From Sphingobium sp. CR2-8 (lineage in GTDB: Bacteria; Pseudomonadota; Alphaproteobacteria; Sphingomonadales; Sphingomonadaceae), in NCBI RefSeq assembly GCF_035818615.1, contig NZ_JAYKZY010000002.1:1428501-1492500 (forward strand): a DNA stretch of 64,000 nt, given 5' to 3'. The notes beneath the pieces are model-generated. The model had not been told where the DNA came from, searched no databases, and was given only the letters and a program-made list of their open reading frames with translations. A program made the position numbers and the translations under genes. Each line of letters opens with the position of its first letter. Position 1 is the stretch's first letter. This document shows positions 1 to 46,470 of this stretch, piece after piece.

Positions 1-618
1 CCCGACAGCGGTCAGATCATCTTCCTGCGCATGCCGCGCGCCAGCGTGCTGAGTCGCAACCCGCATCTGGAGCATCGCACCGTGTGCCCATTGCGTAGCG
101 GAGAAGCCGACACCAGCATGATTGCTGATGCGCTGATGAGCGCATTGCGGTCTGCGGCGCTGTTGGGGGAGGACCGTCGACGCGCGGTTCTAGTCTCCAT
201 AATCCATCTGATGGGGGCGGCGGAATTCGCGCAGGACGAAGCGCCGTCAAAGCCGGTCTGGCGGGTGCAGAATGCGCTCCTGTTCATCGACCTCCATCTG
301 GCCGAACCCGCACTATCCGCCGAAGCTGTCGCGCGATCCCAGCATATCAGCCGCCGTCATCTGGACCAGTTATTTCATGATACGTTGGGTGCCTCCATCA
401 CAGATCGCATCTGGAAACGACGGATTGAACAGGCCGCCGAAGACCTGCGCGATCCAGCGCGCGCGGGCATGACCATATCCCAAATCGCTTTTGCCAACGG
501 CTTTCAGGATGCGGCGCATTTTACCAATGCCTTCCGACGCAATCGCCATTGCACGCCGACGCAATGGCGCGCCTGCACTCCGTTGCTCGCTGTGGGTCAG
601 CCTGCCAGATCGGTCTGA
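1..618 (+). CDS. AraC-family transcriptional regulator, 3' part
   Basis: The reading frame is open from base 1, so the N-terminus lies outside the window. About 205 residues are visible. The C-terminal 100 residues form the two helix-turn-helix motifs of the AraC/XylS family, with AVARSQHISRRHLDQLF as the first and TISQIAFANGFQDAAHFTNAFR as a hallmark second motif (shown only in part by family pattern). The upstream part would be the ligand-sensing domain. It converges on the carotenoid oxygenase gene, with only 20 bases between the stops. The target is unknown; regulation of the neighbouring catabolic genes is inferred from position only. Confidence 0.88.
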   Translation, partial: PDSGQIIFLRMPRASVLSRNPHLEHRTVCPLRSGEADTSMIADALMSALRSAALLGEDRRRAVLVSIIHLMGAAEFAQDEAPSKPVWRVQNALLFIDLHLAEPALSAEAVARSQHISRRHLDQLFHDTLGASITDRIWKRRIEQAAEDLRDPARAGMTISQIAFANGFQDAAHFTNAFRRNRHCTPTQWRACTPLLAVGQPARSV

Positions 619-638
619 TCCGGCTTGGGCCATCCAGT

Positions 639-2107
639 TTACCCGGCCTTCGCAAGCGCAGCCGCATCAACCCAGCAGCCATGAACCTGCGGACGCAGAC
701 GTTGGGGGATGGACACCTTCGCCACTGGCCCTGCGCCGATATTCCCTGCGTCGATGATCCAGCATTGGTGCTCGAAATCGTCAGATCCAGTTTGTTGGTC
801 GACGACCGTTATCAGCCACCCTTCATGCCCGGCTTGTTTGCTGGGCACATGGACCGGTTCATTGAAGCAATGGGCCGGTGGCAAGGCGAGCGCTTGCAGA
901 GGCCCACCGTTGAAATCCAGGCGAATAAGCCTGTTGAACATGGCCCCCACCGGCCCGCCCAAAACGGGGGGGCACGCATGTCGGGATCCATTGTCAGCAT
1001 CCAGCCATAGTCGAGTGGCCGTCCCTGCTTATGCGCCGGAATGATGGGAAAGTCCCCGGAAGGGCCGATGCGCGCAGCGGTGATAGTGTCGCTGCCATCC
1101 GTCAGATTAATGGTCCAGCGTTCCAGCCGACCATCGGCTTCCCAAGCTGGAATATTAAGGCCCGACGCGCGCTGAACGAAGGGGAAGGCGTTGACGTTCG
1201 ACAGGCACTGATCGAAATGAATAAGCCCCTCTGCATCCTCATGGGCGTTCATCATATGATAGCAGAAGACGCCTTTTGGCCCCTTGAACCAGCGGAGTTC
1301 GGCGGTATCGCCATAGCGCGGCATCACACCAACCCAGCTGTCGATATCCATATGATGGACCCAATGATCGCCCCCTGCCTTCAGGCGATCCAGATCGGCG
1401 GTCGTCGGATATATGGGGAACAGCACATAATTTTCGGTAATGGCGAAATCGTGCATCATCGCGCAGTAAGGCGCATCGAACCATTGTTCCCGCAACAGGA
1501 TGCCGTCTTTATCCACGATGAAATAGGCGATTTTCCGTGATGCCAGTCCGTCGGCCTCATAACCGAACATGAAGAGTTCCCCGGTGTCGGGATCGACCCT
1601 GCCATGGGCGGTTGATGTCTGGGATTGCAGCTTGCCGTCGAAATCATAAGAACCGACCGTCGCCAGCGTGGCCGGGTCGACGCGATAGGGACGTCCATCC
1701 TCTTTGGCGAGCAGCAGTCGTCCGCCATGCCAGATGGGGGTGGTGTTCGCGACGGTGCGATCCAATCCTGCCGCAACAGGCTTGTCGGTAAAAGGATTGC
1801 GATATTTCCCATACACCGCTTCACCGGCGGCTGCCTCGACCTCATGCCGAACGGTTTGTACGTATCGCATGGAGATGCTGACATCGTCCGCTGCAAAGCG
1901 GATCGCCGAAATCATGCCATCGCCCGACAGAATGGCGCCACCATCTTCGATGAATGGGGGATAGGCAGGGTCCGGCACAGCGCGAAAAAAGACGCCCTTC
2001 ACGTCGGCGGGTATGACGCCCTCAACCTTCAGATTATGCAAATCATATTCAGCGCCAAGCGGTGTGTTCAGGCCGGTATATTCGGGTGTTTGTGGAAATG
2101 CTGCCAC
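639..2107 (-). pseudogene. carotenoid oxygenase (lignostilbene-dioxygenase family), frameshifted
   Basis: The product belongs to the non-haem iron carotenoid cleavage oxygenase family, seven-bladed propeller enzymes that split a C=C bond of carotenoids, stilbenes or related compounds. From the start at 2107 the frame gives about 380 good family residues, with three of the four expected iron-binding His in STAHGRVDP, MMHDFAI and YHMMNAHED. Near 966-972, at a run of seven C on the coding strand, the frame shifts. The natural C-terminus (FNEPVHVPSKQ, then the last His in PQVHGCW) continues in another frame to 639. The unshifted product would end in about 55 unrelated residues and lack the fourth iron ligand. 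One extra base in the C run would restore a protein of about 488 residues. Sequencing error and real inactivation cannot be told apart here. Confidence 0.85.
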
Positions 2108-3077: not shown

Positions 3078-3237
3078 CCCAGGGCTGTTGGGCGAGAAGA
3101 CGCCTTTATGATGGTCGCGGCAATGAATATCTGAAGACCGACCCTGATATAAAGCCGAGGTTCGCGGCCGTCCTCCAGTGCCTAGACTGTCCCCAAATCC
3201 GCGCGCCAATCAAGAGCGCTCGGGCAGAGGACAGGCA

Positions 3238-4572
3238 ATGGCGAGAGAGCATTTTCTGGGAAGGACGCTAGCGGATTTCGAGCCCCCGGTGCGCGGCGAT
3301 CCGATCACCGGAGAACGCTATTATTCCAAGCGCTGGGCGCGCGCCGAATGGCGCCACGTCTTTGCCAAGGTCTGGCATATCGGCGGGATGCTGGCCGATC
3401 TGGAGGAACCGGGCGACTGGATCACCCATAATCTGATGCGCGACAGCGTCATCATGATCCGGCAGGAGGATGGCTCGATCAAGGCCTTCTTCAATGCCTG
3501 CGTCCATCGCGGCAACCGGCTGCTCTGGTCCGACATGGGCAGCAGCGAGCGGATCACCTGCTCCTATCATGGCTGGCAGTTCGGTAAGGACGGCACCTTG
3601 TTGTTCGCGCAGGATGCAGAGGATTTTCCCGGCGGCAATCCGTGCGGCAAGGCGCATCTGACCGAGATCGCGGTCGGCACATGGGGGCCGTTCGTCTGGT
3701 TTAACATGGACAAAGACGCCACGCCGCTGCTCGACTGGCTGGCGCCGCTGCCCGATCAACTGGCAGGCTATCAGATGGAGACGATGACGCGCGTGCTGGA
3801 CGTGCGCTGCGAAATTCCCTGCAACTGGAAGATCATTCGCGACAATTTCAACGAAAGCTATCATTTGCCCACGCTCCACCCGGAACTGGCGAGCTTTATC
3901 GACGACGAATATACCGACACCAGTTTCGAGATGTATCCCAGCGGCCATAACCGCATGGTGCAAAAGGGATGCCACCCGTCCAAGCGGCTGGACTATCCCG
4001 ATGCGATGCAGCCGCTGGTCGAGGATAATCTGCGCGAATGGGGGCTGGACCCCGCCGATTTCACCGATCGCGCGACGCAGGCACGGGTGGCGATCCAGCA
4101 GGCCAAGCGGCGGTTGGGACGCGAACGCGGCTATCGGCATTTCGACACGATGACCGACAGCATGCTGACCGACTATTATCATTATACGCTCTGGCCAAAC
4201 ACAACGATCACGATGAGCCCGGACGGGTTCCAGATATTGCGGTCCGAACCGCATCCGACCGACCCGGAAAAATGCATCTTCGACCATTGGTATCTGATGC
4301 CGCCGGTTGACGGGCGCACGGAAGTGGTCACCCCGGTCGGCATCGTGCCCTTCGCGCCTGCCGAGCGGGAGGTCGTGATCTATGGCGACAAGACGCTGGG
4401 CTATGTCGCGGATCAGGACATGTCGGTGGCTGTGGGCCAGCAGCAGGGGCTGCATTCGATGGGCTATAAGGGCGGCACGATTTCAGGGCAGGAAAAGCGG
4501 ATTCAGCGCTTCCATGAATTGCTGAACGATGCGTGCGGCATTCATGGCGCGTTACCGGCGGATGGGGACTGA
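3238..4572 (+). CDS. Rieske non-haem iron oxygenase, alpha subunit (copy 1)
   Basis: This is the catalytic subunit of a ring-hydroxylating or demethylating Rieske oxygenase, 444 residues from the ATG at 3238. That start was chosen over one 60 bases upstream because homology begins there and a GAGG sits just ahead. The [2Fe-2S] ligands are C88-x-H90 and C108-x2-H111. The mononuclear iron site is visible as NFNESYHLPTLH, with H209 and H214. It needs an electron donor; the Rieske ferredoxin at 17399 is the only candidate in the window. It is the first gene of a five-gene operon with a SnoaL-like protein, two SDRs and a TIM-barrel isomerase, with stops and starts overlapping or nearly so. The substrate is unknown. 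Confidence 0.94.
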   Translation: MAREHFLGRTLADFEPPVRGDPITGERYYSKRWARAEWRHVFAKVWHIGGMLADLEEPGDWITHNLMRDSVIMIRQEDGSIKAFFNACVHRGNRLLWSDMGSSERITCSYHGWQFGKDGTLLFAQDAEDFPGGNPCGKAHLTEIAVGTWGPFVWFNMDKDATPLLDWLAPLPDQLAGYQMETMTRVLDVRCEIPCNWKIIRDNFNESYHLPTLHPELASFIDDEYTDTSFEMYPSGHNRMVQKGCHPSKRLDYPDAMQPLVEDNLREWGLDPADFTDRATQARVAIQQAKRRLGRERGYRHFDTMTDSMLTDYYHYTLWPNTTITMSPDGFQILRSEPHPTDPEKCIFDHWYLMPPVDGRTEVVTPVGIVPFAPAEREVVIYGDKTLGYVADQDMSVAVGQQQGLHSMGYKGGTISGQEKRIQRFHELLNDACGIHGALPADGD

Positions 4573-4973
4573 TGTCCGCGTTCGAAGACCGGGTGGCGAT
4601 CAACGACGTGTTGGCGCGCTATGCCGATGGCGTGAACCGGCGTGACGCGGTCTTATGGGCATCGACCTGGGACGAAGACGGCGAATGGCGGCTGTTCGAT
4701 CCCGATCCGGTGAAGGGTCGGGCGGCGATCCTGGACGCCTGGCGACAGGCAATGGCGGGATTCCCCTTCGTGATCATGATGGTGTCGCAGGGTGAGGTCG
4801 TGATCGATGGCGACGCGGCTACCGGGCGATCCTATTCCAGCGAAGTCGCGCGCACCGCCGATGGCAAAAGGCTACGGGTGCAGGGCTGCTACGAGGATCG
4901 CTATCGCAAACGCAATGGCGTCTGGGGCTTTGCCTTCCGTGCGTTCACCGCCGTCGACAGCGAAGACTATTGA
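4572..4973 (+). CDS. SnoaL-like / NTF2-fold protein (copy 1)
   Basis: A 133-residue protein of the SnoaL_4 (NTF2-like cone fold) family; the opening pattern FEDRVAINDVLARYADGVN is typical. The ATG at 4572 overlaps the TGA of the oxygenase, so translation is coupled. It resembles the small beta subunit fold of Rieske dioxygenases, but family members also act as hydratases, isomerases or scaffolds. It could be the oxygenase partner or a separate enzyme. It is clearly related to the protein at 21195, sharing the YADxVNRxDxxLWAS pattern. Confidence 0.85.
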   Translation: MSAFEDRVAINDVLARYADGVNRRDAVLWASTWDEDGEWRLFDPDPVKGRAAILDAWRQAMAGFPFVIMMVSQGEVVIDGDAATGRSYSSEVARTADGKRLRVQGCYEDRYRKRNGVWGFAFRAFTAVDSEDY

Positions 4974-4992
4974 GATCGATCGGGAGAGGATG

Positions 4993-5772
4993 ATGGCACG
5001 ACTGGACGGCAAGGTTGCGGTGATATTGGGCGCGTCCGACCCCCGCAGCATGGGCGCGGCGACGGCGCGGCGCTTTGCGGCCGAGGGCGCGAAGCTGGTG
5101 CTGGCGGCGCGGCGAGCGGACGCGGTCGCAGCGGTGGCGACAGATCTGGGCGCGGTCGCCATCGCCTGCGATATCACCGACGAAGCGCAATTGGCCGCGC
5201 TCGCCAAGGCGGCGGTCGATAATTATGGGCGGCTCGACATTGCGATCAACTATGCCGGTATAGGTGGGTCGGGCGCGATCCTGGACACCAGCGCCGAGCT
5301 GTTCCGCCAGCAGGCGGAAGTGCATTTCGTCGGGACGGGCCTGTTCATCAAGCAGATGGCGCTGGCCATGACCCCTGTTGCCGATGGCAAGGGTGGCGGA
5401 TCGATCATCACCGCATCGTCGCTCACCGTGCTGGTGCAGGCGACCGATTATGGCGCCTATGCGGGGTCCAAGGGCGGGGCGGACGTGCTGGTCAAAGTCG
5501 CCGCCAATGAACTGGGCGCACGCGGCATCCGGGTCAATTCCATCGCGCCGGGCTTCACCAAGAGCGCCATGACGGAGGATTATTTTGCCATGCCGGCTGT
5601 CACGAACGCTTTCCTCAAGGAAATGCCGCTGGGGCGCTTTCCTACGGTCGAGGATATTGCCAATACCGCCTTGTGGCTCGCCAGTGACGAGGCGTTCGTG
5701 ACCGGCCAGCGGATCGATGTCACCGCCGGACAGGCGCTACGGCGAACGCCGCGCCCGGAGGAGTTCGTCTGA
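4993..5772 (+). CDS. SDR-family oxidoreductase (copy 1)
   Basis: A classical short-chain dehydrogenase/reductase of 259 residues, using NAD(P) to oxidise an alcohol or dihydrodiol or to reduce a ketone. The cofactor motif GASDPRSMG is at 13-21, the structural motif appears as NYAG rather than NNAG near 86, and the catalytic Ser is at about 142 with Y156 and K160 in YAGSK. Two ATGs stand side by side; the second (4993) has GGGAG at the better distance. It follows the SnoaL-like gene by 19 bases and overlaps the next SDR by ATGA. An attractive guess is oxidation of the oxygenase product. Confidence 0.9.
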   Translation: MARLDGKVAVILGASDPRSMGAATARRFAAEGAKLVLAARRADAVAAVATDLGAVAIACDITDEAQLAALAKAAVDNYGRLDIAINYAGIGGSGAILDTSAELFRQQAEVHFVGTGLFIKQMALAMTPVADGKGGGSIITASSLTVLVQATDYGAYAGSKGGADVLVKVAANELGARGIRVNSIAPGFTKSAMTEDYFAMPAVTNAFLKEMPLGRFPTVEDIANTALWLASDEAFVTGQRIDVTAGQALRRTPRPEEFV

Positions 5773-6563
5773 TGGGCCGGCTGTCGGGCAAGGCGGCGCT
5801 GGTCGTGGGTGCCGCCAGCGCGGGGAATATGGGACAGGCGATCGCTCGCCGCTTTGCGGATGAAGGCGCGCGGGTCGTGGTCGCCGGGCGCAACATGCAC
5901 GTGCTGGAAACGCTGGCGGGCGAGATTGGCGGCGTGGCGCTGCCTTGTGACTTTTCCGATCGGGCGAGTATCTTCGCCCTGGTCGAAGGCACGAAGGCGG
6001 CGCTGGGCGGCCTGGATATTGCGGTCAACGCCACCGGCTGGGGCCTGCTCAAACCGTTCCTCGAAACGACCGACGAGGATTTCGATCGGATGTATGCGCT
6101 GCAACTGCGCGGACCGTTCCAGTTCCTGCAAGCGCTGATCCCGGCGATGGGCGCAGGCGGGTCAGTCATCCAGATCAGTTCGGCGACCGCGACGATCATG
6201 TTCCACGATCATGACGCCTATATGGCGACCAAGGCGGGCACCGACCATATGATCCGCAGCGTCGCCAACCAGTTTGGCGACCGCGGCATCCGTTTCAATA
6301 GCGTGTCGCCGGGCGTCACCGATACGCCGATGACGGCCGATGCGGCTGCCGTGCCCGGCCTGATGGACGCCTTCAACAAAGCCTATCCGCTCGGTCGCTA
6401 TGGCACGCGGGAGGATATCGCGGCGGCCTGTGTCTGGCTCGCCAGCGACGAATCTTTCATGACCGGTGAGAATATGCAGGTGAATGGCGGGCTAAGCCTG
6501 CGCGGTAATCCGTCCAAGGCGGACATCGCAGCGTCGGTCGCGGCGGCGATTGCGGCGGGCTGA
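5772..6563 (+). CDS. SDR-family oxidoreductase (copy 2)
   Basis: A 263-residue classical SDR. The glycine-rich motif is GAASAGNMG at 13-21, NATG replaces NNAG at 86-89, and S136/S137, Y150 and K154 form the catalytic set. The ATG overlaps the stop of the previous SDR. The C-terminal 20 residues are Ala-rich and longer than usual. The two tandem SDRs are divergent paralogues, which suggests two successive dehydrogenation or reduction steps rather than redundancy. The substrate is unknown. Confidence 0.9.
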   Translation: MGRLSGKAALVVGAASAGNMGQAIARRFADEGARVVVAGRNMHVLETLAGEIGGVALPCDFSDRASIFALVEGTKAALGGLDIAVNATGWGLLKPFLETTDEDFDRMYALQLRGPFQFLQALIPAMGAGGSVIQISSATATIMFHDHDAYMATKAGTDHMIRSVANQFGDRGIRFNSVSPGVTDTPMTADAAAVPGLMDAFNKAYPLGRYGTREDIAAACVWLASDESFMTGENMQVNGGLSLRGNPSKADIAASVAAAIAAG

Positions 6564-6565
6564 CG

Positions 6566-7363
6566 ATGGGCCGCCGCCATCCGCTGGCCATGTCGGCGGG
6601 CATCATGCCGGAAGCGACCCCGGTACAACTGGTCGAGGCGGCCGCCCAGGCCGGGTTCGACTATGGCGGCATGTGGGTCGAGATGGCCGACTGGACGACG
6701 GCCACGACGCGGGAGGTCAGGGCGGCGCTGGCGGCGACGGGCCTGCCACTGCTGGACGTCGAAGTGGTGTGGATCAAGCCTGGCCCGCTCGACCCCGATC
6801 ATCTGCGTATCGTCGACATCGGGCTGGAGCTTGGCGCGCACAATGTCCTGTGCGTCAGCAGCGACCCTGATGCGGGGGCGACGCGGGACAAGCTGGCGGC
6901 GTTGATGGCGCATGGGGGCAGCGGGATCAGGGTCAATCTGGAGTTCGGCCTGTTTACAGCGGTCAAGACCATCGATCAGGCCAGCGCGATCCTGCGGGAA
7001 ATCGATGCACCGAACATGGGGTTGCTGATCGATGCGCTGCACTGGACCCGGTCTGGGGGCACGCTGGCGGATGTCGCCGCCGTGCCGATAGAGTGGCTGG
7101 GCTATGCCCAATTATGCGATGCGCCGATGCCGGGGGCGGACCCTGGCGACCCCGATGCGATCCTCGTCGAGGCGATCGATGGCCGGGTCGCTTTGGGGCG
7201 GGGCGGCCTCGCGATCGATGGGTTGCTGGCAGGATTGCCAGATGGATTGCCGATCGGAATCGAGGAGCGGTCGAAGGCGCTGCGGGAGGACTTTCCCGAC
7301 TTTAACGATCGCGCTGCGGAACTGATGCGGACCAGTCGGGCCTGGCTGGGTGGCCGGGCTTAA
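6566..7363 (+). CDS. xylose-isomerase-like TIM barrel (sugar phosphate isomerase/epimerase family)
   Basis: A 265-residue protein of the AP-endonuclease-2/xylose-isomerase-like TIM-barrel family. Typical signs are the N-terminal TPVQLVEAAAQAGFDYGG, acidic and His positions along the strands such as LIDALHW and QLCDAP, and the final GIEERSK strand. These proteins bind a divalent metal and isomerise, epimerise, lyse or hydrolyse many small molecules, so the sugar label should not be taken literally. It starts 2 bases after the SDR stop and ends the operon. A perfect hairpin follows at 7441. Confidence 0.82.
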   Translation: MGRRHPLAMSAGIMPEATPVQLVEAAAQAGFDYGGMWVEMADWTTATTREVRAALAATGLPLLDVEVVWIKPGPLDPDHLRIVDIGLELGAHNVLCVSSDPDAGATRDKLAALMAHGGSGIRVNLEFGLFTAVKTIDQASAILREIDAPNMGLLIDALHWTRSGGTLADVAAVPIEWLGYAQLCDAPMPGADPGDPDAILVEAIDGRVALGRGGLAIDGLLAGLPDGLPIGIEERSKALREDFPDFNDRAAELMRTSRAWLGGRA

Positions 7364-7474: not shown

Positions 7475-7476
7475 CC

Positions 7477-8933: not shown

Positions 8934-8939
8934 GGCTGC

Positions 8940-9956
8940 TTATCCCCGCCTGTAGGACATAGCCTTGACCGCCGCCGCCACGATTTTTTCGGGCGAGGGC
9001 AGATAGGCGGATTCAAGTTCGCGGGCGAAAGGCACCGGGCTGTGCGGGCCGGTCACCATCTCGATCGGGGCGCGCAGGCTGGAAAAGGCCTTGTTGGCGA
9101 CCAGCGCCGACAGATCGGTGGCGAAGCTGCACCGGGGCGGCAATTCGTCCACGATCAGCAGGCGGCCGGTGCGCTCCACGCTGTCCAATATCGCTTCCTC
9201 GTCCAGCGGACTGGTGGTGCGCAGGTCGATCAGGTCGCAGCCGATGCCGTCCTGCGCCAGCTGCGCTGCGGCATTTTCCGCAAAGCCGACCATCATACCG
9301 GTGGCGAGCACGGTGATGTCATCGCCCTGCGTCACCTGCCGCGCATGGCCGAACGGGATCAGATAATCGCCGTCGGGCACTTCGCCCTTCACGCCATACA
9401 GCGCCTTATGCTCCAGGAAGATGACCGGGTCGTCTTCGCGGATCGCCTGCGCCAGCAGGCCCTTGGTATCGGCGGCGGTCGATGGCATCACGACCTTCAA
9501 CCCTGGCATCGCCGTCACCATCGCGTGGATCGACTGGCTGTGCTGGGGCGCGGCATTGTAGCCGCCGCCATAGGGCATGCGGATCACGATCGGACATTTG
9601 CTCTTGCCGCCGAACATGTAGCGGAACTTGGCGACCTGATTCCAGATCTGGTCCATGCAGACGCCGATGAAGTCGGCGAACATGATTTCGGCGATGGCGC
9701 GCTTGCCGGTCAGCGAAGCGCCCGCCGCCGCGCCGATGATGGCGCTTTCGGAAATGGGGGTGTCGATCACACGGTCGGACCCATATTTGGCCCACAGCCC
9801 GCCAGACGTGCCCCAGATGCCGCCAATCGCTTCCGGCCCGCCGGGCGACCCCATGCCGCCGACGATATCCTCGCCCAGCATGATGACGCTATCGTCGCGC
9901 GCCATTTCCTCGTCGATCGTGTCGCGAATGACGTCGCGGATCATTTTCATGGCCAT
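8940..9956 (-). CDS. 2-oxoacid dehydrogenase E1 beta subunit
   Basis: A 338-residue transketolase-like beta subunit of a thiamine-diphosphate 2-oxoacid dehydrogenase, of the acetoin/branched-chain/pyruvate E1beta type. The N-terminal RDTIDEEMARD, the GEDIVGGMGSPGGPEAIGG stretch and RMPYGGG are family features. With E1alpha it decarboxylates a 2-oxoacid, or cleaves an acetoin-like compound, and hands the acyl group to E2. Gene order is E1alpha-E1beta-E2, with 18 and 6 base gaps. Within this operon the product would be an acyl-CoA for the adjacent acyl-CoA dehydrogenase and thiolase; that link is inferred. Confidence 0.92.
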   Translation of the reverse strand: MAMKMIRDVIRDTIDEEMARDDSVIMLGEDIVGGMGSPGGPEAIGGIWGTSGGLWAKYGSDRVIDTPISESAIIGAAAGASLTGKRAIAEIMFADFIGVCMDQIWNQVAKFRYMFGGKSKCPIVIRMPYGGGYNAAPQHSQSIHAMVTAMPGLKVVMPSTAADTKGLLAQAIREDDPVIFLEHKALYGVKGEVPDGDYLIPFGHARQVTQGDDITVLATGMMVGFAENAAAQLAQDGIGCDLIDLRTTSPLDEEAILDSVERTGRLLIVDELPPRCSFATDLSALVANKAFSSLRAPIEMVTGPHSPVPFARELESAYLPSPEKIVAAAVKAMSYRRG

Positions 9957-30282: not shown

Positions 30283-30289
30283 ATTGCCC

Positions 30290-33942: not shown

Positions 33943-34245
33943 TCAGCGTCCCGATATGCCCGACGCCCGATCGCGCGTCTGGCTGAAATCCGTGCCCCTG
34001 CGGCCCGGCAGATGGATGAGCGGCATGCCCGCCATGAAGGCGTCGCTCGGCGCGTCCTTGCGCGCCCAGTCGATATGGGCCTCTGGCCCGCCGCGCAGCA
34101 GGCCGCAATCGACGTCGGAATCGGCATGCAAGGCGCGCATCTGCAAATCGGGATCCAGCCGGTCCTGCCTGCGCATATAATCGAAGATCGCCTTTTGAAT
34201 GTCGCGCCGCGCGGCCAGATCGCGCATTTCCGCTTCAAGGTTCAT
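33943..34245 (-). CDS. truncated SnoaL-like protein (copy 5)
   Basis: This 100-residue frame starts like a SnoaL_4 protein (MNLEAEMRDLAARRDIQKAIFDYMRRQDRLDPDLQMRALHADS is the family opening, given here only as a region of residues 1-43). Family likeness stops near residue 58, and the last 40 residues read as unrelated sequence ending in RASGISGR. Normal members reach 150-180 residues. A deletion or rearrangement seems to have removed the C-terminal half of the fold. The start at 34245 is set by GGAGG 6 bases ahead. It is probably non-functional. Confidence 0.6.
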   Translation of the reverse strand: MNLEAEMRDLAARRDIQKAIFDYMRRQDRLDPDLQMRALHADSDVDCGLLRGGPEAHIDWARKDAPSDAFMAGMPLIHLPGRRGTDFSQTRDRASGISGR

Positions 34246-34260
34246 CCGATCCTCCATGCG

Positions 34261-34818: not shown

Positions 34819-34891
34819 GCTGTGCCTCTTCCCGATACTCTTATCCATCAGGCGGAGGCTAGAGCATGGCGCGTCTATTCCCGACTATCAT

Positions 34892-35509: not shown

Positions 35510-35582
35510 GGCACGAGTTTCTCCAGAGAAAGGCGACGCTGTAAAGGCATGTCTCCCTAGCGATTCCGACAGCTTTCGGTCT

Positions 35583-35615
35583 ATTTTATTATATAACATA
35601 TGTTGTAAATAAAAT
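35583..35615. promoter_or_regulatory. AT-rich palindromic operator, probable TetR site
   Basis: A 33-base imperfect palindrome centred on AACATATGTT, with outer arms ATTTTATT and AATAAAAT. It is strikingly A/T-rich in a GC-rich region. It lies between the divergent TetR and KstD-like genes, ending 13 bases before the latter's start. Position and symmetry suit autoregulation by the TetR protein. Confidence 0.7.
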
Positions 35616-35628
35616 CGGGAGTGGATCG

Positions 35629-37260: not shown

Positions 37261-37264
37261 TCCG

Positions 37265-38476
37265 TCAGCGATCCCATCGCAGCGGCAGCGCCGTGCAGGC
37301 GCCGACATTGCCCGTCCGCATCGTTACGCGATGCGCCGGGTCCAGGTCGAACAGGGGTATGACGGGTAGCCATTCCTGGAGGACGGTGATGATCTCCATA
37401 CGGGCGAGCGCGGCACCGACGCAACGGTGCGCGCCATTGCCCATGGTCGTATGTTTGAGCGGCGATAGTTTGCGGTCGAACCGCACATCCTGTGGCGCAT
37501 CGAAACTGCGTTCGTCCAGATTGTGCAGGACGCTGGCCAGATAGATCGTGTCCCCCGCCTGCATCGTGACGCCATCCAGTTCCATGTCCACGCGCAGATT
37601 GCGGCTGACAGATACGCTGGCATAACGGCGCATCAGTTCGTCGGCGGCATCGGGGATCAGGGCCGGATCGTCGCGCAATTGTGCCTGCTGCGCGGGGTGG
37701 CGGGCCAGATGGAGCATGACGAAGCCCAGCATCGCCACCACGGTGTCGAGACCGCCGAACAACAGGTTGCGGCACATCCGACGCGCTTCGTCCTCGGTCC
37801 ACGCCCGGCCATCGATGGGAACCGTCAATATGCGGCTGAACAGGTCGTCGCCGGGGTTCGCCAGGCGCGCCTGAACGAAGGGCCACAGATAATCGTCCGC
37901 CGCCTGCATCAGGTCTGCTGGCGTCATGGTGCCGTCAGGCCGGGTCAATTGGGCGCCGAACTCCCGCAGCATCGGGCGATCGGCCAGTGGCACGTCGATC
38001 AGCGTCAGGAAGATGTTGATCGGCAGGATTTCGGCGAAGTCCGTCATGAAATCGCATGTCCCGCGATTTTGCAGACCGGCGATCAGTTCGCGGGCGACGG
38101 CTCTGACCTGCGGCTCCATCGCGACGATATGGCGCGACGCAAAGCCCGTCATCACCGCCTTGCGGAATGGCCCATGTTCGGGCGGGTCGAGTTGCAACGG
38201 GATGAACCGCATCACCTTGCCCACTTCGGGCGGGACGGTGAGCACTTCGTTGGACAGATTGTCCGTATCCGCCCAGAGCCGGTGAATATCCTCGCCCCGC
38301 GTCGCGATCCAGTGGCCGCCATTATGCGGCGTCCAGACCAGCGCGGGTTTACCCGGTGCCTGAAGCGCCTTCCACGCCGAGAAATAATCCTGCTCGATCA
38401 GGGGCGGTTGATAGACATCGAAATCGACTACGCGATCGGCAGGGACATGGTCGGGAACCGGCGTCGGGATAGTCAT
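37265..38476 (-). CDS. cytochrome P450
   Basis: A 403-residue class I bacterial P450 from ATG at 38476. The haem loop is MGNGAHRCVGAALARME with the haem-ligating C352; the Phe usual at the start of this loop is Met. The I helix has LLFGGLDTVVAM, where Val follows Thr in place of the Thr-Thr pair, and the ExxR motif is ELMRRY. No ferredoxin gene dedicated to it is present. Hydroxylation of a hydrophobic ring compound is expected. It is downstream of the TonB receptor, 82 bases away, in the same direction. Confidence 0.94.
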   Translation of the reverse strand: MTIPTPVPDHVPADRVVDFDVYQPPLIEQDYFSAWKALQAPGKPALVWTPHNGGHWIATRGEDIHRLWADTDNLSNEVLTVPPEVGKVMRFIPLQLDPPEHGPFRKAVMTGFASRHIVAMEPQVRAVARELIAGLQNRGTCDFMTDFAEILPINIFLTLIDVPLADRPMLREFGAQLTRPDGTMTPADLMQAADDYLWPFVQARLANPGDDLFSRILTVPIDGRAWTEDEARRMCRNLLFGGLDTVVAMLGFVMLHLARHPAQQAQLRDDPALIPDAADELMRRYASVSVSRNLRVDMELDGVTMQAGDTIYLASVLHNLDERSFDAPQDVRFDRKLSPLKHTTMGNGAHRCVGAALARMEIITVLQEWLPVIPLFDLDPAHRVTMRTGNVGACTALPLRWDR

Positions 38477-38558
38477 GATGCTCGGCTCCTTCGAGCGCAT
38501 ATCGTGCAGAAATCGACGGGCGGCGCGATGGTAGGCCGCCCGTCGCAGTGGGAGGCCG

Positions 38559-40865
38559 TTAGAATTCGACGCCCAGTGTCGCACCGAATGTGCGGGGTTC
38601 GCGCGCCGATGCAAAGGACCACAGACCAGCAACGGTGAATGCCGCGGATGGCCCCCGGTCATTGGCGAGGTTGCGACCGAACACTGTGAATTTCGCCTTG
38701 GTTTTGCCCATGTCGAAATGCGCGGTCAGGCTGGCGTCGACCAGTCCCTGAGCATCCGAACGGACGCGCGGGTCGTTGCCATTGACGATGACAGTGCCGC
38801 CATTGCTGACCGCGCCGGTATTGCCCGTGAGCGGCCCGAGCGAGATCTGCTGGTCATAACGTCCAATGTAGCGGTAGCCTACATTGGCGACGACATCGCC
38901 AAAGCTGGTGTCCAGCGTATAGTCGATGTTGAACGATGCGTTGAATTTGGGGCTGTAGATCGGATCGTTGCCCGAATAGTCGAACGGGCGGATGACCGTG
39001 CCGACAGGCGCGGGGAAGGTCAGCACGTTGCCGGCGACGAAGTTCTTGAACTTGGTATCCAGAAAACCGGCCGATCCACTGATGCGCAGGGCCGTGGCCG
39101 GACGGGCGACGAAGTCGATTTCCACGCCCTTGATCAATTCCGAGCCGACATTGGACGTGATCGTCTGGTTACCGGTCGGGCCGCCGGGGATCGTCGTGTT
39201 CTGCTGCAAATTCTTATATTTGGCGTAGAAGGCCGCGACATTGAATTGCAGCATCCGGTCGAACAGATCAAGCTTGGCGCCGATTTCATAGCTGTCCACC
39301 GTTTCGGGCTGATACGGCAAGCTGGCGGTATCCGCCGTCGCCGCGCGGGGAGAAAAACCGCCCGAACGATAGCCGCGTGACCAGGATGCGTAGAGCAGCG
39401 TGTTGGCGTCGGGTCGATAATCCAGTCCGATCTTGGGCGTGAATTTCTTGAAATCCGCCGCGCCGCTGCCGACCGGCGTGACACCGAAGGCATTGGTCAG
39501 TTCCTTTTTATCCCAGGTGTAGCGGCCACCGAAGGACAGGCGGAACTGGTCCGCAAAGGCCCAGATGAAGTCGCCGAACACGGCATAGGACCGGTTTTTG
39601 CCGGTGACGTTTTGCGGCGCTGGATCGGCAACCCTGGGATCAAGCGTCGGATTGAAGCCGAACAGGCGGGTGAATTGCGTCAGGTTATATTTGGAGTCAA
39701 AGAAATATCCGCCCACGACATAGTCGAAATTATCGCCGACTTTGCCACCGGCGCGCAATTCCTGACTCCATTGGCGATAATTCTGCAAACGCAACACATA
39801 ATAGAGATCGGCCGTGGATGAATCGAAATCCTGCGTCTGGCGCTCCGTGGATTTGCGATAGCCGGTGATCGATGTAAGTTTGACCGCATCCAGGTCCAGG
39901 TTCATCTCATAGGTGACCGATGGCGCCCGATAGTTGGATGTACCCGGATCGTTGAAAACGGTGTAGAGGTCGCCAGAGGTGTTGCGATTGCACTGGTTGG
40001 CAGGCATGAAATTGCAGAATAGTTCGCCTGTCCTGGCGATGGTGGGGTTGACGACGTCAAATTTCTGTATCTGCTTCTCTACAGTCAGTAACGCGTCGAA
40101 GTTGCTGCTGGGCGTGAAGAGGAAAGACGCACCGAAATTGTCGCTATTGCTGCCGCCGGCACGCTTGCCGGTTATGCCGTGCCGATAAAAGCCGTCGCTT
40201 TCATTGTGGATATACCATGCCTTGGCGGCCAGCTTGTCTGCAACGATGGGCAGGTTGATGATGGATTTGGCGGCCCAGGTATTGTAGCTGCCATAGGTGC
40301 CCTCCAGCTTGGCGCCGAATTCACCGGTAGGGCGCGACCGCTGGATGCTGATGACGCCGCCGATGGTGTTGCGGCCAAACAACGTCCCCTGCGGACCGCG
40401 CAGCACTTCGATCTGCTTGATGTCGAAAAAGTCGAAAAATTGCCCGGTGCTGGTGCCGATGAACACGCCATCGACCACGACGCCGACAGTGGGTTCCTGC
40501 GACTTTTCGATATCGGCATAGGTCAGGCCGCGGATCGACAGGTTGGCTGCGGCCGCGCCGGAATTCTGTTGCGTGATGAGCAGGTTGGGCGCGGACCCCT
40601 GAAGATCGCCGATGGTAACGGCGCCCTTGTTTTCGATCTGCGCCGCGGCGATTGCGGTGATCGCGATCGGCGTCGACTGCAACGTCTCGTCGCGCCGACG
40701 GGCGGTGACGACGATGTCCTGAATCTGGCTTTTTTCCAGCTGCGGCGCAGCGGCAGCATCCTCCTGCGCCATCGCCGGTGCGGCAAGCGCTGCGAAGGCT
40801 AAAGCGGACAGCGCGCAGCCGCCCAGCAGGCCAAATGAAGGCATAATCTTCCTGTCGGTCATCAC
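38559..40865 (-). CDS. TonB-dependent outer-membrane receptor
   Basis: A 768-residue receptor with an N-terminal signal peptide (hydrophobic stretch at about 11-30, cleaved near PAMAQ), a TonB-box-like DIVVTA, a plug domain with PNLLITQQN and VLRGPQGTLFGRNTIGG, and a 22-strand barrel ending in Phe (GATLGVEF). Sphingomonads use such receptors for hydrophobic and aromatic compounds as well as iron chelates. Its place beside the P450 suggests uptake of the pathway substrate across the outer membrane. Confidence 0.95.
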   Translation of the reverse strand: MMTDRKIMPSFGLLGGCALSALAFAALAAPAMAQEDAAAAPQLEKSQIQDIVVTARRRDETLQSTPIAITAIAAAQIENKGAVTIGDLQGSAPNLLITQQNSGAAAANLSIRGLTYADIEKSQEPTVGVVVDGVFIGTSTGQFFDFFDIKQIEVLRGPQGTLFGRNTIGGVISIQRSRPTGEFGAKLEGTYGSYNTWAAKSIINLPIVADKLAAKAWYIHNESDGFYRHGITGKRAGGSNSDNFGASFLFTPSSNFDALLTVEKQIQKFDVVNPTIARTGELFCNFMPANQCNRNTSGDLYTVFNDPGTSNYRAPSVTYEMNLDLDAVKLTSITGYRKSTERQTQDFDSSTADLYYVLRLQNYRQWSQELRAGGKVGDNFDYVVGGYFFDSKYNLTQFTRLFGFNPTLDPRVADPAPQNVTGKNRSYAVFGDFIWAFADQFRLSFGGRYTWDKKELTNAFGVTPVGSGAADFKKFTPKIGLDYRPDANTLLYASWSRGYRSGGFSPRAATADTASLPYQPETVDSYEIGAKLDLFDRMLQFNVAAFYAKYKNLQQNTTIPGGPTGNQTITSNVGSELIKGVEIDFVARPATALRISGSAGFLDTKFKNFVAGNVLTFPAPVGTVIRPFDYSGNDPIYSPKFNASFNIDYTLDTSFGDVVANVGYRYIGRYDQQISLGPLTGNTGAVSNGGTVIVNGNDPRVRSDAQGLVDASLTAHFDMGKTKAKFTVFGRNLANDRGPSAAFTVAGLWSFASAREPRTFGATLGVEF

Positions 40866-42698: not shown

Positions 42699-43222
42699 TC
42701 GCGGGATTGCCGATCCGGCAGGTCGCCTATTTCGTTCAGGATGTGCGCGTCGCCGCCATCGCCCACGCCGCGACCTTCGGCTCCGGTCCCTATTTCGTGG
42801 CCGATCATATCCCGCTCAAACGCTGCCTGCACCGTGGCGTCGCGGTGCCGCTCGATCATAGTTCTGCCTTTGGGCAGTGGAACGACCTGATGATCGAATT
42901 TGCGCAACAAAATGGTCCCGGCCCCTCCGTCTTTCACGATATGTTTGCGCCGGGGGCGGAGGGGTTTCACCATGTCGCCCTCATCGTGGACGATCTTGAG
43001 ACCGCCCGGATCGCTTGCGAACAGGCGGGGTTCGCTACCGCATTGGAGGCGGAGATGAACGACGGATTCCGCTTCCTGATGATGGATGCGGTCGCGCGCT
43101 ACGGCCACATGATCGAATTGTATCAAGGCGCGCCGGTGCTGACCGACTTCTATGATGTCGTCAGGCAGGCGTCGATCGGTTTCGATGGCCGCGACGTAAT
43201 CCGGCCCATCAGCATGGCCTGA
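42695..43222 (+). CDS. VOC-superfamily (glyoxalase-like) protein (copy 1)
   Basis: A 175-residue vicinal-oxygen-chelate protein. Start ATG at 42695 overlaps the GMC stop. It has two beta-alpha-beta-beta-beta modules: RQVAYFVQDVRVAAIAHAATFG and EGFHHVALIVDDLE. His in the first strand is replaced by Gln-Val-Ala, while HHVA of the second module and the late HMIELYQ Glu are kept. Family members are dioxygenases, epimerases or lyases. The role here is unknown; it resembles copy 3. Confidence 0.84.
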   Translation: MIAGLPIRQVAYFVQDVRVAAIAHAATFGSGPYFVADHIPLKRCLHRGVAVPLDHSSAFGQWNDLMIEFAQQNGPGPSVFHDMFAPGAEGFHHVALIVDDLETARIACEQAGFATALEAEMNDGFRFLMMDAVARYGHMIELYQGAPVLTDFYDVVRQASIGFDGRDVIRPISMA

Positions 43223-43238
43223 TGCGCTCGTTCAAGCC

Positions 43239-43697
43239 TCACTCGCCCAGCCAGTCGTCGATCACCGGCTTCAGGTCGGTCGAAATCAGCTCGACCAGCA
43301 ATCCGGGCACCGGCGGCGCGACATAGGCGATCAGCCCATAGCCTTCTTCCGGCGACGCGCCCGCCGCGACCACGCGCCACCCTTCACCGATCATCCGGTC
43401 CGTTTCGCCCTTCAGGTCATCGACCCAGATACCGACATGCCGCGCATCCGGCGCGCGATCGGGGTCATAAAAGGCGCCGCTGCCCTGCACCAGTTCCAGA
43501 TGATGCGGACCGCCCAGCGAATAGGTCGCCTTGACATGCACCTCATGCGATCCGGCTTCCGGCGTCCAAAAGGGCAGGGGGTCGAAATGCCGCACCGCCG
43601 CCCATGTCAGCCCCAGCGTGGAGCCGAACAGGTCCATCGCCGCGTCGATATCGGCCACGGCCATGCCGGTATGGTGAAAGCGTTGCAGGTCGATCAT
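43239..43697 (-). CDS. VOC-superfamily (glyoxalase-like) protein (copy 2)
   Basis: A 152-residue VOC protein from ATG at 43697. Possible metal ligands are in QRFHHTGMAV, GGPHHLELVQG, ARHVGIWV and LLVELIST, giving the His-Glu-His-Glu order of glyoxalase and methylmalonyl-CoA epimerase-like enzymes. It is convergent with copy 1 and follows copy 3 by 27 bases in the same transcript. Confidence 0.85.
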   Translation of the reverse strand: MIDLQRFHHTGMAVADIDAAMDLFGSTLGLTWAAVRHFDPLPFWTPEAGSHEVHVKATYSLGGPHHLELVQGSGAFYDPDRAPDARHVGIWVDDLKGETDRMIGEGWRVVAAGASPEEGYGLIAYVAPPVPGLLVELISTDLKPVIDDWLGE

Positions 43698-43724
43698 GCG
43701 CAAAGGCCTTTCATGGAATAGGGG

Positions 43725-44252
43725 TCACCAGGGGACCATCAACTGTTCGCCGTCCCAGTCGCGCGCCGCTTCGACCGTGCGGGCGTACATGGCGCGGATG
43801 ATGGGATGTTCGGGATAGAGTTCGATGAAATGGCCCAGCGTATCACGCGCATCGACATAGCAGATTTTCGCGCCGAAGCCGGTGGTGAACTCGCTGGCAA
43901 TGGCATGACCGGCCGCGACCCAATGCGCCTTTTCTGCCTCATAATCCTCGCAGAACAGGGCGACATGATGCAACCCGTCGCGCCCCGTGTCGATCATGTC
44001 GTGAAAGGCGCTGGGACCGGGTGAAAGGATCTGGATCAGTTCGATGTTGAGGTCGCCCGACTGGACGAACACGCCCCGCAGCCGGATGGGCGCTGTCGGC
44101 GCACCGCGATAATGATGGTCCTCCAGCGTCACTTCGGTCCCGCCGACAAAAGGCCCGACGCCCAGCATCGCGCGCAGGCGCTCGCACGCCATGTCCAGAT
44201 CGCGCACGACATAGCCATTTTGCACGATCCTGGCGGCGGCGCGTCGCGACAT
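43725..44252 (-). CDS. VOC-superfamily (glyoxalase-like) protein (copy 3)
   Basis: A 175-residue VOC protein, a paralogue of copy 1 (both have GPGPSVFHDM/GPSAFHDM followed by HHVAL). The first module has Gln in QNGYVVRDLD in place of His; the second has HHVALFCED and GHFIELYPEH. It starts the leftward pair with copy 2. Three VOC genes side by side suggest several related isomerase or lyase steps, or paralogues with separate substrates. Confidence 0.85.
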   Translation of the reverse strand: MSRRAAARIVQNGYVVRDLDMACERLRAMLGVGPFVGGTEVTLEDHHYRGAPTAPIRLRGVFVQSGDLNIELIQILSPGPSAFHDMIDTGRDGLHHVALFCEDYEAEKAHWVAAGHAIASEFTTGFGAKICYVDARDTLGHFIELYPEHPIIRAMYARTVEAARDWDGEQLMVPW

Positions 44253-44376
44253 CGGTCCTCTCCTCTGCTCGGGCCAAGCTAGGCTTTTCGTGCGGATCGG
44301 CGACTAACATCTTTGACAGGGGGGTAAGTTCTTCATCGCGCGCTATCATGCGACGATAAGCGTATCGGGAGGATCT

Positions 44377-46470
44377 ATGCCGCATCACAAGGCCATAATC
44401 ATTATGGGGATCGCGGCCACTGCCCTGATTGTGTCGAGTTGCGGCACGACGGTTCGCGACACCACCGATGCGGCGCTGAACCCCAATGATTGGACGGGGT
44501 TCGGACGCACCGGCGGCGAACAACATTATAGCCCGCTCGATGGGATCAACAGCGGCAATGTCGGCAAGCTGGGCCTGGTCTGGTCGATGGACCTGCCACC
44601 GCAGAACAGCGTGTCCGCGCCGCTGGCGATCGACGGGGTCGTCTATACCGCCACAGGGTACACCTTTGTCCGCGCGATCGATGCGGTGACCGGCAAGCTG
44701 TTATGGGAATATGACAGCAAGGCGGCCGAACTATCGGGTCGCAAGCTGCGCCAGGGCTGGGGCATACGCGGCCTTGCCTATGGCGAGGGCAAGATCTTCG
44801 TCGGCACGCATGACGGTCGCCTGCTGGCGATCGATGCGAAGACAGGTGCGCTTGCCTGGTCGTCGCGCACGCTGCCGATCGACAATCCCAGCTACATCAC
44901 CGGCCCGCCCCGCTATTTCGCGGGTAAGGTCATCATCGGCTTCGGCGGCGGCGATGTCAGTTCGGTGCGTGGTTATGTGACGACTTACGACGCGAAAACC
45001 GGCAAGCAACTTTGGCGCTTCTACACCGTGCCGGGCAATCCCAAGGATGGCTTCGAAAGCAAGGCCATGGAAATGGCGGCGCGGACCTGGGCCGGGGACT
45101 GGTGGAAATATGGCGGCGGCGGAACCGTTTGGAACGCGATGACCTATGACGTCAGCACGGATTCCATCATCCTGGGCGTCGGCAACGGTTCGCCTTGGAA
45201 CCACAAGGTGCGCAGCGAGGGCAAGGGCGACAATCTGTTCCTGGCGTCCGTCGTGGCGTTGGATGCAAAGACTGGGGCCTATAAATGGCATTATCAGGTC
45301 AATCCGGGCGAGACGTGGGACTATAACGCCTCGATGGACATGGAATTGGCTGACCTGACCATCGATGGAAAACGGCGTCAGGTATTGATGACCGCGCCCA
45401 AGAACGGCTTTTTCTACGTCATCGACCGGACCAACGGCAAGCTCATCTCAGCTGAACCCTTCGTCAAGGTCAGCTGGGCCAAGCGCATCGACCTCAAGAC
45501 CGGCCGCCCGGTCGAAGATCCCGACGCGCGCTATCCCGATGGCAAGACCTTCACCATGTGGCCCGGCCCGGTCGGCGCGCATACCTGGCTGCCGATGGCG
45601 TATAATCCCAAGGCAGGCCTCGTCTACATCCCGGCGATCGAGATGGCGACCAGCTATAATGACGTCGGCATCACGCGGGCCAACTGGGTGCGGACGCCCG
45701 GCAGCGCGGTGGACGGTGCGGCGATCCCCAATTATGTCGTCAAGGACGCCGGCCCCACCAACGCCACCAGCGCGCTATTGGCATGGGACCCGGTGCGCCA
45801 GCGCGCGGCGTGGAAAGTGCCGACGCCGGGGCCATGGAATGGCGGCGTGATGACCACTGCGGGCAACCTCGTCTTCCAGGGGCGGATCGACGGCCAGTTC
45901 AATGCCTATGCGGCCGACAGTGGCAAGCTGCTATGGCGCTTTGCCGCGCAGGCGCCCGTCACCGCGCCGCCGATCAGCTATGCCGTTAATGGCAAGCAAT
46001 ATGTAACTGTCATCACCGGCATGGGCACCAGCGGCGCGGCGTTCGGCACGCTGCTGCCGGTCAGCATCGACTATCGCACTCAGGCGCGGCGCATCCTGAC
46101 CTTTGCGCTCGATGGTAAGGCTACCCTGCCCAAAGCCGACATCGCGCCGCTGACGCCTGCCACGGACCCGGATTTCAAGCCCGATCCTGCTATGGAGGCA
46201 CGCGGGATGCTGACCTACGCGCTGCATTGCGCCGTCTGTCACGGCGTCAATGTCGTCGCGGCCGGCCATGCGCCCGATCTGCGGGCCTCCACCGTGCCAG
46301 TTGATCCCACGGCTTTTGCGACGGTCGTTCGGGACGGCGCGCTGGTGTCCAACGGCATGCCGCGTTTCGAAGAGTTCGACGATGCCGCCCTCGCGGCGCT
46401 ACGCCAATATATCCGGCGCAATAACGCCGACTGGCATCGGGGCGCCGTCCAGACACCGACCGGGAAATAG
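44377..46470 (+). CDS. PQQ-dependent quinohaemoprotein dehydrogenase, predicted lipoprotein
   Basis: A 697-residue PQQ alcohol-dehydrogenase-type beta propeller (about 36-590) fused to a C-terminal cytochrome c domain with CAVCH at 618-622. The N-terminus ends in a lipobox, VSSC at 19-22, so it may be anchored to a membrane facing the periplasm. The protein has no adjacent Cys pair, so the disulfide ring beside PQQ in classical methanol and quinohaemoprotein dehydrogenases is absent. NPGETWDYNAS provides the catalytic Asp. GGAGG lies 4 bases before the ATG. It would oxidise an alcohol and pass electrons to the respiratory chain. Confidence 0.93.
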   Translation: MPHHKAIIIMGIAATALIVSSCGTTVRDTTDAALNPNDWTGFGRTGGEQHYSPLDGINSGNVGKLGLVWSMDLPPQNSVSAPLAIDGVVYTATGYTFVRAIDAVTGKLLWEYDSKAAELSGRKLRQGWGIRGLAYGEGKIFVGTHDGRLLAIDAKTGALAWSSRTLPIDNPSYITGPPRYFAGKVIIGFGGGDVSSVRGYVTTYDAKTGKQLWRFYTVPGNPKDGFESKAMEMAARTWAGDWWKYGGGGTVWNAMTYDVSTDSIILGVGNGSPWNHKVRSEGKGDNLFLASVVALDAKTGAYKWHYQVNPGETWDYNASMDMELADLTIDGKRRQVLMTAPKNGFFYVIDRTNGKLISAEPFVKVSWAKRIDLKTGRPVEDPDARYPDGKTFTMWPGPVGAHTWLPMAYNPKAGLVYIPAIEMATSYNDVGITRANWVRTPGSAVDGAAIPNYVVKDAGPTNATSALLAWDPVRQRAAWKVPTPGPWNGGVMTTAGNLVFQGRIDGQFNAYAADSGKLLWRFAAQAPVTAPPISYAVNGKQYVTVITGMGTSGAAFGTLLPVSIDYRTQARRILTFALDGKATLPKADIAPLTPATDPDFKPDPAMEARGMLTYALHCAVCHGVNVVAAGHAPDLRASTVPVDPTAFATVVRDGALVSNGMPRFEEFDDAALAALRQYIRRNNADWHRGAVQTPTGK

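Follow-up and report, generated by a model that had tools for sequence, protein, structure and literature searches.

We analysed a window of 64,000 nucleotides from Sphingobium sp. CR2-8 (the whole stretch, G000:C2:1428501-1492500; the genome measures 4.51 Mb and consists of three contigs), in which a block of 43 kb (approximately 3178-46470), running from the first of three Rieske oxygenases to a dehydrogenase dependent on pyrroloquinoline quinone (PQQ), forms a genuine unit. This block, hereafter the island, could well serve the breakdown of a small cyclic terpenoid, the likeliest candidates being ionone-type C13 norisoprenoids (fragments of carotenoids), a reading that we favour but hold with somewhat less than even confidence. 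Carotenoids are among the most abundant terpenoids of plants and algae. The initial annotation of this DNA had called the region steroid- or terpenoid-like; the terpenoid half of that description is upheld, mainly by a cytochrome P450 of the CYP101C type, which is found together with the core thiolase of the island, whereas the steroid half is not, as the KshA_C and BphC_D1 families have no match in the genome and the island thiolase keeps its cysteine.

The clue to the substrate comes from the P450. Among solved structures it is closest to CYP101C1, to which it is 66% identical (260 of 393 aligned residues; 594 bits, with the next distinct chain at 337 bits), and since P450 subfamilies are named at more than 55% identity it belongs to the CYP101C subfamily. 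CYP101C1, from Novosphingobium aromaticivorans, and CYP101B1 are both reported to yield 4-hydroxy-beta-ionone from beta-ionone (PMC9655578; PMC8197338), and CYP101D5 of Sphingomonas echinoides is an ionone hydroxylase (PMC9655578); here and below, statements on published work refer to the excerpts available of the papers cited. Both N. aromaticivorans and S. echinoides carry the core.

The P450 and the core also go together across the family. In a survey of 347 genomes, with the P450 called at E<=1e-140, the core thiolase at E<=1e-150 and at most the best five candidates per genome scored, a CYP101C-like P450 was found in 17 genomes, the window genome included, and all 17 have the core thiolase, which overall occurs in 75 of the 347 genomes and in 36 of 96 genera. 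The one-sided Fisher value for this co-occurrence (1e-12) overstates the evidence, because the 17 genomes fall in 8 genera and are not independent. A separate set of 16 genomes lacking the P450, taken from listed rows and not at random, contained the thiolase in two cases; we rely on the full survey instead. With respect to position, the P450 lies between the E2 gene and the dehydrogenase/kinase pair in four genomes of one genus, and beside a KstD-like gene (59%) and the core on a plasmid of Novosphingobium humi. When the P450 neighbours of the loci without such linkage were grouped by similarity, the groups common to three or four loci (the P450 and the frames opposite to it left aside) came from L183, L184, L185 and L187, all members of one genus. 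Separately, in two loci of genus g57 (L180, L181) a CYP101C-type P450 has, at a distance of about 3 kb or less, a PQQ dehydrogenase that shares 72-73% identity with that of the island (44377-46470); the fetched stretch of these loci contains no core genes.

The island comprises the following features (window coordinates; SDR, short-chain dehydrogenase/reductase; MDR, medium-chain dehydrogenase/reductase; CoA, coenzyme A; APH, aminoglycoside phosphotransferase; RO, Rieske oxygenase; G032, a close relative):

3178-4572, + strand: RO1, Rieske oxygenase alpha subunit, GbcA-like, with a 96% identical orthologue in G032
4807-5772 and 5772-6563, + strand: two SDR dehydrogenases, in the same order in relatives
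6566-7363, + strand: TIM-barrel (xylose-isomerase-like) protein, PF01261
7477-8933, - strand: E2 dihydrolipoyl acyltransferase, two open reading frames here with the frame broken near 8135, a single gene in TomTYG65
8940-9956 (E1beta) and 9975-10937 (E1alpha), - strand: subunits of a 2-oxoacid dehydrogenase complex
10968-12176, - strand: large-type (PimC-like) acyl-CoA dehydrogenase, below cut-off
12183-13328, - strand: SCP2-type thiolase homologue, with Cys78, and with Glu330 and Gln280 replacing the usual His residues
13321-13758, - strand: DUF35/OB-fold partner of the thiolase, PF01796, without cysteine
13922-14812, - strand: LuxR-type regulator, PF00196, kept beside the core
14869-16104, + strand: small-type (PimD-like) acyl-CoA dehydrogenase, below cut-off
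16259-17393, - strand: MDR-type reductase, frame broken near 16984, with PF16884 and PF00107 on separate pieces
within 17336-17764, + strand: Rieske ferredoxin-type protein, PF00355 (an open frame in which translation probably starts at an internal position)
17761-18513, - strand: ThuA-domain protein, PF06283
18633-19391, - strand: SDR dehydrogenase
19530-21116, + strand: acyl-CoA ligase
21195-21617, + strand: SnoaL-like protein, PF13577
21969-22751 (-), 22775-23578 (-) and 24432-25211 (+): three SDRs, many loci of other genera having a similar trio next to RO3
25398-26576, - strand: RO2, Rieske oxygenase alpha subunit
26593-27606, - strand: CurA/PTGR-type MDR reductase (308.3 bits, cut-off 440)
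27785-29212, + strand: RO3, Rieske oxygenase alpha subunit
29236-31480, + strand: APH-fold kinase and acyl-CoA dehydrogenase, an ACAD10/11-like pair
31480-32469, + strand: CurA/PTGR-type MDR reductase (323.0 bits, cut-off 440)
32466-32930, + strand: SnoaL-like protein, PF12680
32927-33925, - strand: CurA/PTGR-type MDR reductase (308.7 bits, cut-off 440)
34261-34848, - strand: SnoaL-like protein, PF13577
34892-35599, - strand: TetR regulator, part of the exchangeable cassette 34892-38500
35629-37260, + strand: KstD-like flavoprotein, part of the same cassette
37265-38500, - strand: CYP101C-type P450, part of the same cassette
38559-40865, - strand: TonB-dependent receptor, PF00593 and PF07715
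40992-42698, + strand: GMC-type oxidase
42701-44252: three VOC (Glyoxalase_4) proteins, PF13669
44377-46470, + strand: PQQ-dependent alcohol dehydrogenase (527.4 bits, above the cut-off of 480), ending in a cytochrome c-type match

Every part that the initial annotation had named is present, namely the KstD-like flavoprotein, the thiolase-DUF35 pair, both acyl-CoA dehydrogenases, the ACAD10-like pair, the CoA ligase, three Rieske oxygenases, the P450, the GMC oxidase and the TonB receptor. To these the list adds the Rieske ferredoxin, the E1alpha/E1beta/E2 complex, three CurA/PTGR-type reductases and a broken fourth reductase of the MDR type, six SDRs, the ThuA, SnoaL and VOC proteins, and the PQQ dehydrogenase. 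Four Rieske matches occur in the window, three of them oxygenase alpha subunits and one the ferredoxin-type protein. As the three intact CurA/PTGR-type reductases score below the NCBIfam cut-off for CurA, they are relatives of that family and not members. Scans of the window for tRNA genes and Rfam families found nothing.

We regard the island as a real unit because its marker genes recur together within the genus and many of its genes co-recur across the Sphingomonadales; more than chance is at work, since other genera have the genes grouped as well, in many cases with their order unchanged. Comparisons were based on 46 hand-picked reading frames, without the Rieske ferredoxin at 17336-17764. 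RO3 (at least 77% identity) was found in 23 of 94 genomes of the genus, including that of the window, and the thiolase (at least 80%) in the same 23; in the 22 other genomes the two lie on one contig, 13-30 kb apart, in 15 cases, and on different contigs of draft assemblies in seven. Around 80 named RO3 loci from Sphingobium, Novosphingobium, Croceicoccus, Sphingomonas, Azospirillum and the Alpha proteobacterium IMCC14465, recurrence at 45% identity or more was seen for the SDR at 24432 (46 loci), ThuA (42), the LuxR regulator (32), the thiolase (29), the large acyl-CoA dehydrogenase (28) and E1alpha (25); matches below 30% identity or 80 bits and overlapping weaker matches had been dropped, and the counts are lower bounds, as each locus spans at most 10 kb on either side. 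Homologues of the Rieske ferredoxin are present in 22 fetched loci, mostly core loci, at 38-90% identity. In G032, where matches below 30% identity and overlapping weaker ones were likewise dropped, the gene order from RO1 to the PQQ dehydrogenase is identical and most genes are 87-98% identical, with 81% for the SnoaL-like protein at 34261, 77% over 35 residues of the broken MDR reductase, and 70-71% for two small frames (23827-24387 and 33943-34257). A further genome (G277) has a large copy of the island, including a CYP101C-type P450, as a single block, in which neither the CoA ligase nor the KstD-like gene found a match.

The front end of the island differs from this conserved background. 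The TonB receptor is merely 53-64% identical to its G032 counterpart, and another TonB-like match lies elsewhere within the G032 block; the TetR-KstD-P450 cassette (34892-38500) finds no counterpart at the corresponding position of G032, and no KstD orthologue was found anywhere in that genome (best E 4.4e-5). In this one close pair, the receptor, the P450 and KstD have the appearance of an interchangeable specificity module on a fixed core, and it would be these three that choose the substrate. We considered the KstD-like gene as a member of the fixed core and rejected this, as a close copy (at least 70%) occurs in two of 60 other genomes, both of which bear the core. A KstD-like gene lies beside the core in G088, in S. 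jatrophae (L102; 74%) and in N. humi (59%); a C-terminal KstD piece in G112 (66%), the remainder of which is not in the next stretch, was not counted. The N. humi locus is on a 96-kb plasmid (NZ_CP117419.1; L156, L157) with much of the core, a CYP101C-type P450 and the KstD-like gene, which also carries genes for isobutyryl-CoA breakdown and electron-transfer flavoprotein and is possibly a self-contained catabolic plasmid.

The KstD-like protein scores below the cut-off for every NCBIfam family concerned: 416.9 bits for 3-oxosteroid 1-dehydrogenase and, as its best score, 430.8 bits for 4-oxocyclohexanecarboxylate 2-dehydrogenase (cut-off 1000). Its residues Tyr117, Tyr343, Tyr518 and Gly522 align to Tyr119, Tyr318, Tyr487 and Gly491 of 4c3x, which we take to be the catalytic residues of that structure, assuming a chain offset of 20. 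On this alignment the Tyr/Tyr/Tyr/Gly set of 3-ketosteroid Delta1-dehydrogenases is present, and with it the Tyr-x3-Gly pair (Tyr518 and Gly522) on which the initial annotation had remarked. By analogy with 3-ketosteroids, 4-oxo-ionone would be a suitable substrate for ring desaturation adjacent to a quaternary carbon.

For an ionone-type substrate a route through the island can be proposed, in which the substrate, each reaction and the order of the steps are as we infer them. The TonB receptor would import the compound, the CYP101C-type P450 would hydroxylate its trimethyl ring, and an SDR, the GMC oxidase or the PQQ enzyme may oxidise the resulting alcohol, giving a ring ketone. This ketone could then be desaturated beside the quaternary carbon by the KstD-like enzyme, much as KstD acts beside C10 of a 3-ketosteroid, while the CurA/PTGR-type reductases might saturate the double bond of the side-chain enone. 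One or more Rieske oxygenases, supplied by the Rieske ferredoxin, would hydroxylate the ring and so lead to its opening, and the ring-opened acid would be converted to its CoA ester. Shortening of the ester may involve the large and small acyl-CoA dehydrogenases, SDRs and the DUF35-thiolase homologue, joined by the kinase/dehydrogenase pair as a putative enzyme system of the 4-hydroxyacyl-CoA type, and a 2-oxoacid or acyloin piece would be processed by the E1/E2 complex.

The thiolase homologue itself has an unusual active site. Its best match among solved structures is 7pxp (164 bits). In an alignment of 52 sequences (matches below 45% identity or 85% coverage dropped), which include the window, several genomes of one genus and two copies from Rhodococcus plasmids and are not all independent, the nucleophilic Cys78 is kept in 52 of 52; GEP in place of GHP (Glu330) and QD in place of HD (Gln280) are equally invariant, so that both standard His residues are absent. 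The DUF35 partner contains no cysteine, and its Pfam match covers the OB-fold part only. Together, the replacement of His by Glu330 and Gln280 and the cysteine-free partner suggest, at the level of sequence, that the pair catalyses an altered reaction. At least 7999 homologues of the thiolase exist at E<=1e-40, the motif being known from the 52 that were aligned. In the DUF35 frame the first ATG, GTG or TTG lies deep inside, at 13479, and the stretch upstream of it is similar in G032; possibly the gene uses a rare start codon such as ATC. Relatives of the thiolase at 47-63% identity are also found on plasmids of Rhodococcus, Streptomyces and Mycobacterium. On two Rhodococcus plasmids (L153, L154) a related thiolase-DUF35 pair is accompanied by a P450, a mycofactocin-type SDR, two CoA transferases and an APH/acyl-CoA dehydrogenase pair, and these loci are a possible actinobacterial counterpart of the island.

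Several observations weigh against ionones as the substrate. No gene of the island has been assigned to the ring-cleaving step. In 58 of the 75 thiolase-bearing genomes a CYP101C-like P450 is lacking at the threshold used, which means that the core does not depend on this P450; likewise IMCC14465 (L094) has the core but no P450 match within 21 kb. In C. marinus the P450 is 31 kb from the thiolase, and in 11 of the 16 other genomes with the P450 it has no core next to it (20-40 kb fetched), for which reason we rejected a positional linkage of P450 and core in all genomes; co-occurrence without linkage does favour a shared function over hitch-hiking. The ionone activity of CYP101C1 was reportedly found by screening, which does not prove its natural substrate, and cineole is among the substrates of CYP101 relatives. 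CYP101 enzymes are promiscuous, with relatives that accept camphor and flavonoids (PMC9655578).

A further hint on the substrate is of mixed value. Isobutyryl-CoA (valine-type) genes accompany the core on two plasmids, which fits a substrate with a gem-dimethyl or isopropyl group. Such genes are not beside the core in the window, however, and lie beside it in two of 152 loci (matches below 45% identity dropped) and in none of 25 loci of a second set (below 35% identity or 90 bits dropped), although not all of these loci hold the core. In the window genome the one mmsA gene that scores above its cut-off is on another contig, without the other four module genes beside it. We therefore rejected these genes as a constant companion of the core and keep them as a hint.

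It is possible, if somewhat doubtful, that the island represents a more general and so far undescribed route: a widespread pathway for ionone-type carotenoid fragments that would copy the logic of the attack on steroid ring A, from P450 hydroxylation over the ring ketone to KstD-like desaturation beside a quaternary carbon, open the ring with Rieske enzymes without a catechol or an extradiol dioxygenase, shorten the product as a CoA ester with the help of a Glu/Gln thiolase, and have a front end swapped between strains so as to change the substrate. If the ionone reading holds, CYP101C1, which has been studied as a biocatalyst, could be given a place in a pathway and a role in physiology, and a testable function could be assigned to the thiolase with its many homologues. 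No gene cluster for bacterial breakdown of ionones or apocarotenoids was found in the titles and abstract openings of open-licence PubMed Central papers, and no description of the island was found in the same literature, most subscription journals being outside its scope. The suggestion in the initial annotation that the region is a candidate for an undescribed system is in keeping with this, and we consider it a good candidate for an undescribed pathway.

Among the alternatives, the one that fares best, although we think it rather unlikely, is that the island serves another small terpenoid (a camphor-, cineole- or menthane-type monoterpenoid, or a sesquiterpenoid) and that the P450 is merely a local entry enzyme. 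The CYP101 family includes camphor hydroxylases and CYP101J2, the front end is exchangeable between close relatives, and other P450s, 32-45% identical to the one here, occur in nine of the 80 RO3 loci (seven at 38% or more). On pNL2 of N. aromaticivorans, a P450 closest to CYP101D5, D2 and J2 lies directly upstream of Rieske genes and the core; it matches the CYP101 family, but as no solved member is close (384 bits at best) we dropped the attempt to name it. What counts against this alternative is that the window P450 is far nearer to the ionone-active CYP101C1 than to any other solved CYP101 enzyme (at most 337 bits).

Larger terpenoids, such as triterpenoid or steroidal sapogenins, are an improbable substrate. 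Two observations favour them: sugar genes occur in the vicinity of the core in both N. aromaticivorans and N. capsulatum, and the core is carried by a plasmid of Sphingobium sp. TomTYG65, an isolate from a study of tomatine degraders (PMC10653915). Against them, that study proposes that sapogenin breakdown goes via orthologues of the ordinary steroid pathway, and the core is present also in IMCC14465, a marine genome. The CYP101 family, moreover, is known for small substrates (PMC9655578).

Degradation of steroids or bile acids via a sphingomonad variant of the 9,10-seco pathway is, in our estimate, distinctly improbable, even though the KstD-like protein with its four catalytic residues, the Rieske oxygenases, the two-subunit-type dehydrogenases and the thiolase-DUF35 pair would all have a place in it, and in sphingomonads the breakdown of bile salts is known to involve Rieske enzymes as well as an unknown route for the side chain (PMC8540908; PMC8399759). 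Profile searches of the whole genome gave no match for KshA_C (PF19298) or for BphC_D1 (PF22632), the family of HsaC/TesB-type extradiol dioxygenases. The absence of an HsaC-type enzyme noted in the initial annotation thus extends, at the family level, from the window to the genome, and the search for ring-cleavage genes elsewhere that it proposed is answered in the negative for these two families. As a control, pNL2 gave three KshA_C and two BphC_D1 matches at 225-389 kb, that is, 46-210 kb beyond its copy of the core at approximately 152-179 kb; N. aromaticivorans is a bile-salt degrader (PMC12175502). A plasmid of strain ES2-1 gave two KshA_C matches and one for BphC_D1, whereas S. echinoides has the core and neither family. 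In a metagenome-assembled genome labelled Chol11, RO3, ThuA, E1 and E2 lie within 17 kb, with one BphC_D1 match and none for KshA_C. Finally, the aldolases of steroid side chains are cysteine-less (PMC8399759), and the island thiolase, with its Cys78, is not of this Ltp2/Sal type. With both hallmark families absent from the genome and found in the control, we rejected the canonical steroid route; judged from its sequence, the island does not look like it, while a steroid route that relies on ring-cleavage enzymes of an unrecognised kind is an unlikely but conceivable case.

A role in the breakdown of lignin-type aromatic dimers, starting from the NOV2-like lignostilbene dioxygenase at the left edge (812-2107, - strand; 647.5 bits, just below the cut-off of 650), is highly improbable, for although NTF2-like and SDR enzymes also act in lignin dimer routes, the dioxygenase lies outside the conserved block, its frame is broken near the end (at approximately 960, with the missing end in an overlapping frame), and the lignin routes given in the excerpts of PMC12997858 leave no room for the acyl-CoA core or KstD.

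The genes before approximately 3178 (AraC, the lignostilbene-type dioxygenase and DsbA) found no match in the G032 stretches examined, and for that reason we treat them as flank. The broken frames of E2 (near 8135) and the MDR reductase (near 16984) coincide with frame-shifting length differences in the alignment to G032; these two and the frame of the dioxygenase reflect either assembly error or decay. To the right of the island are an IS66 transposase and an IS21-type pair, at 48460-50073 and 52860-55089. The genome has a second catabolic locus (L026; G000:C2:2440000-2459999) with an acyl-CoA dehydrogenase pair, a thiolase, a KstD-like gene, a Rieske oxygenase and pieces of a TonB receptor.

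Among known systems, the 9,10-seco clusters of Comamonas, Pseudomonas and Sphingobium Chol11 have in common with the island KstD-type desaturation, Rieske hydroxylation, a CoA ligase, two-subunit-type acyl-CoA dehydrogenases and a DUF35 domain. In contrast to those clusters, the window genome is without a KshA_C or BphC_D1 match, the island thiolase keeps its Cys, and the island adds a 2-oxoacid dehydrogenase, CurA-type reductases and the CYP101C P450. The benzoylsuccinyl-CoA thiolase BbsAB, the source of the best structure match (7pxp), is likewise a pair of a thiolase and a DUF35-type protein, but the island enzyme has Glu330 and Gln280 in place of the GHP and HD His residues and a partner without cysteines. 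ACAD10/ACAD11 and LvaAB are 4-hydroxyacyl-CoA systems in which, as here, an APH-fold kinase adjoins an acyl-CoA dehydrogenase; in the island the two are separate genes. ChcC1, a 4-oxocyclohexanecarboxylate 2-dehydrogenase, represents the family to which the KstD-like protein scores highest, albeit far under the cut-off. For the saponin genes of tomato Sphingobium, the excerpts of the paper name glycosidases and steroid-pathway orthologues and not the island, although the study isolate has the core (PMC10653915). CYP101C1 of N. aromaticivorans, lastly, is treated in the excerpts of the literature as an isolated enzyme, whereas its homologue here lies inside a catabolic island.

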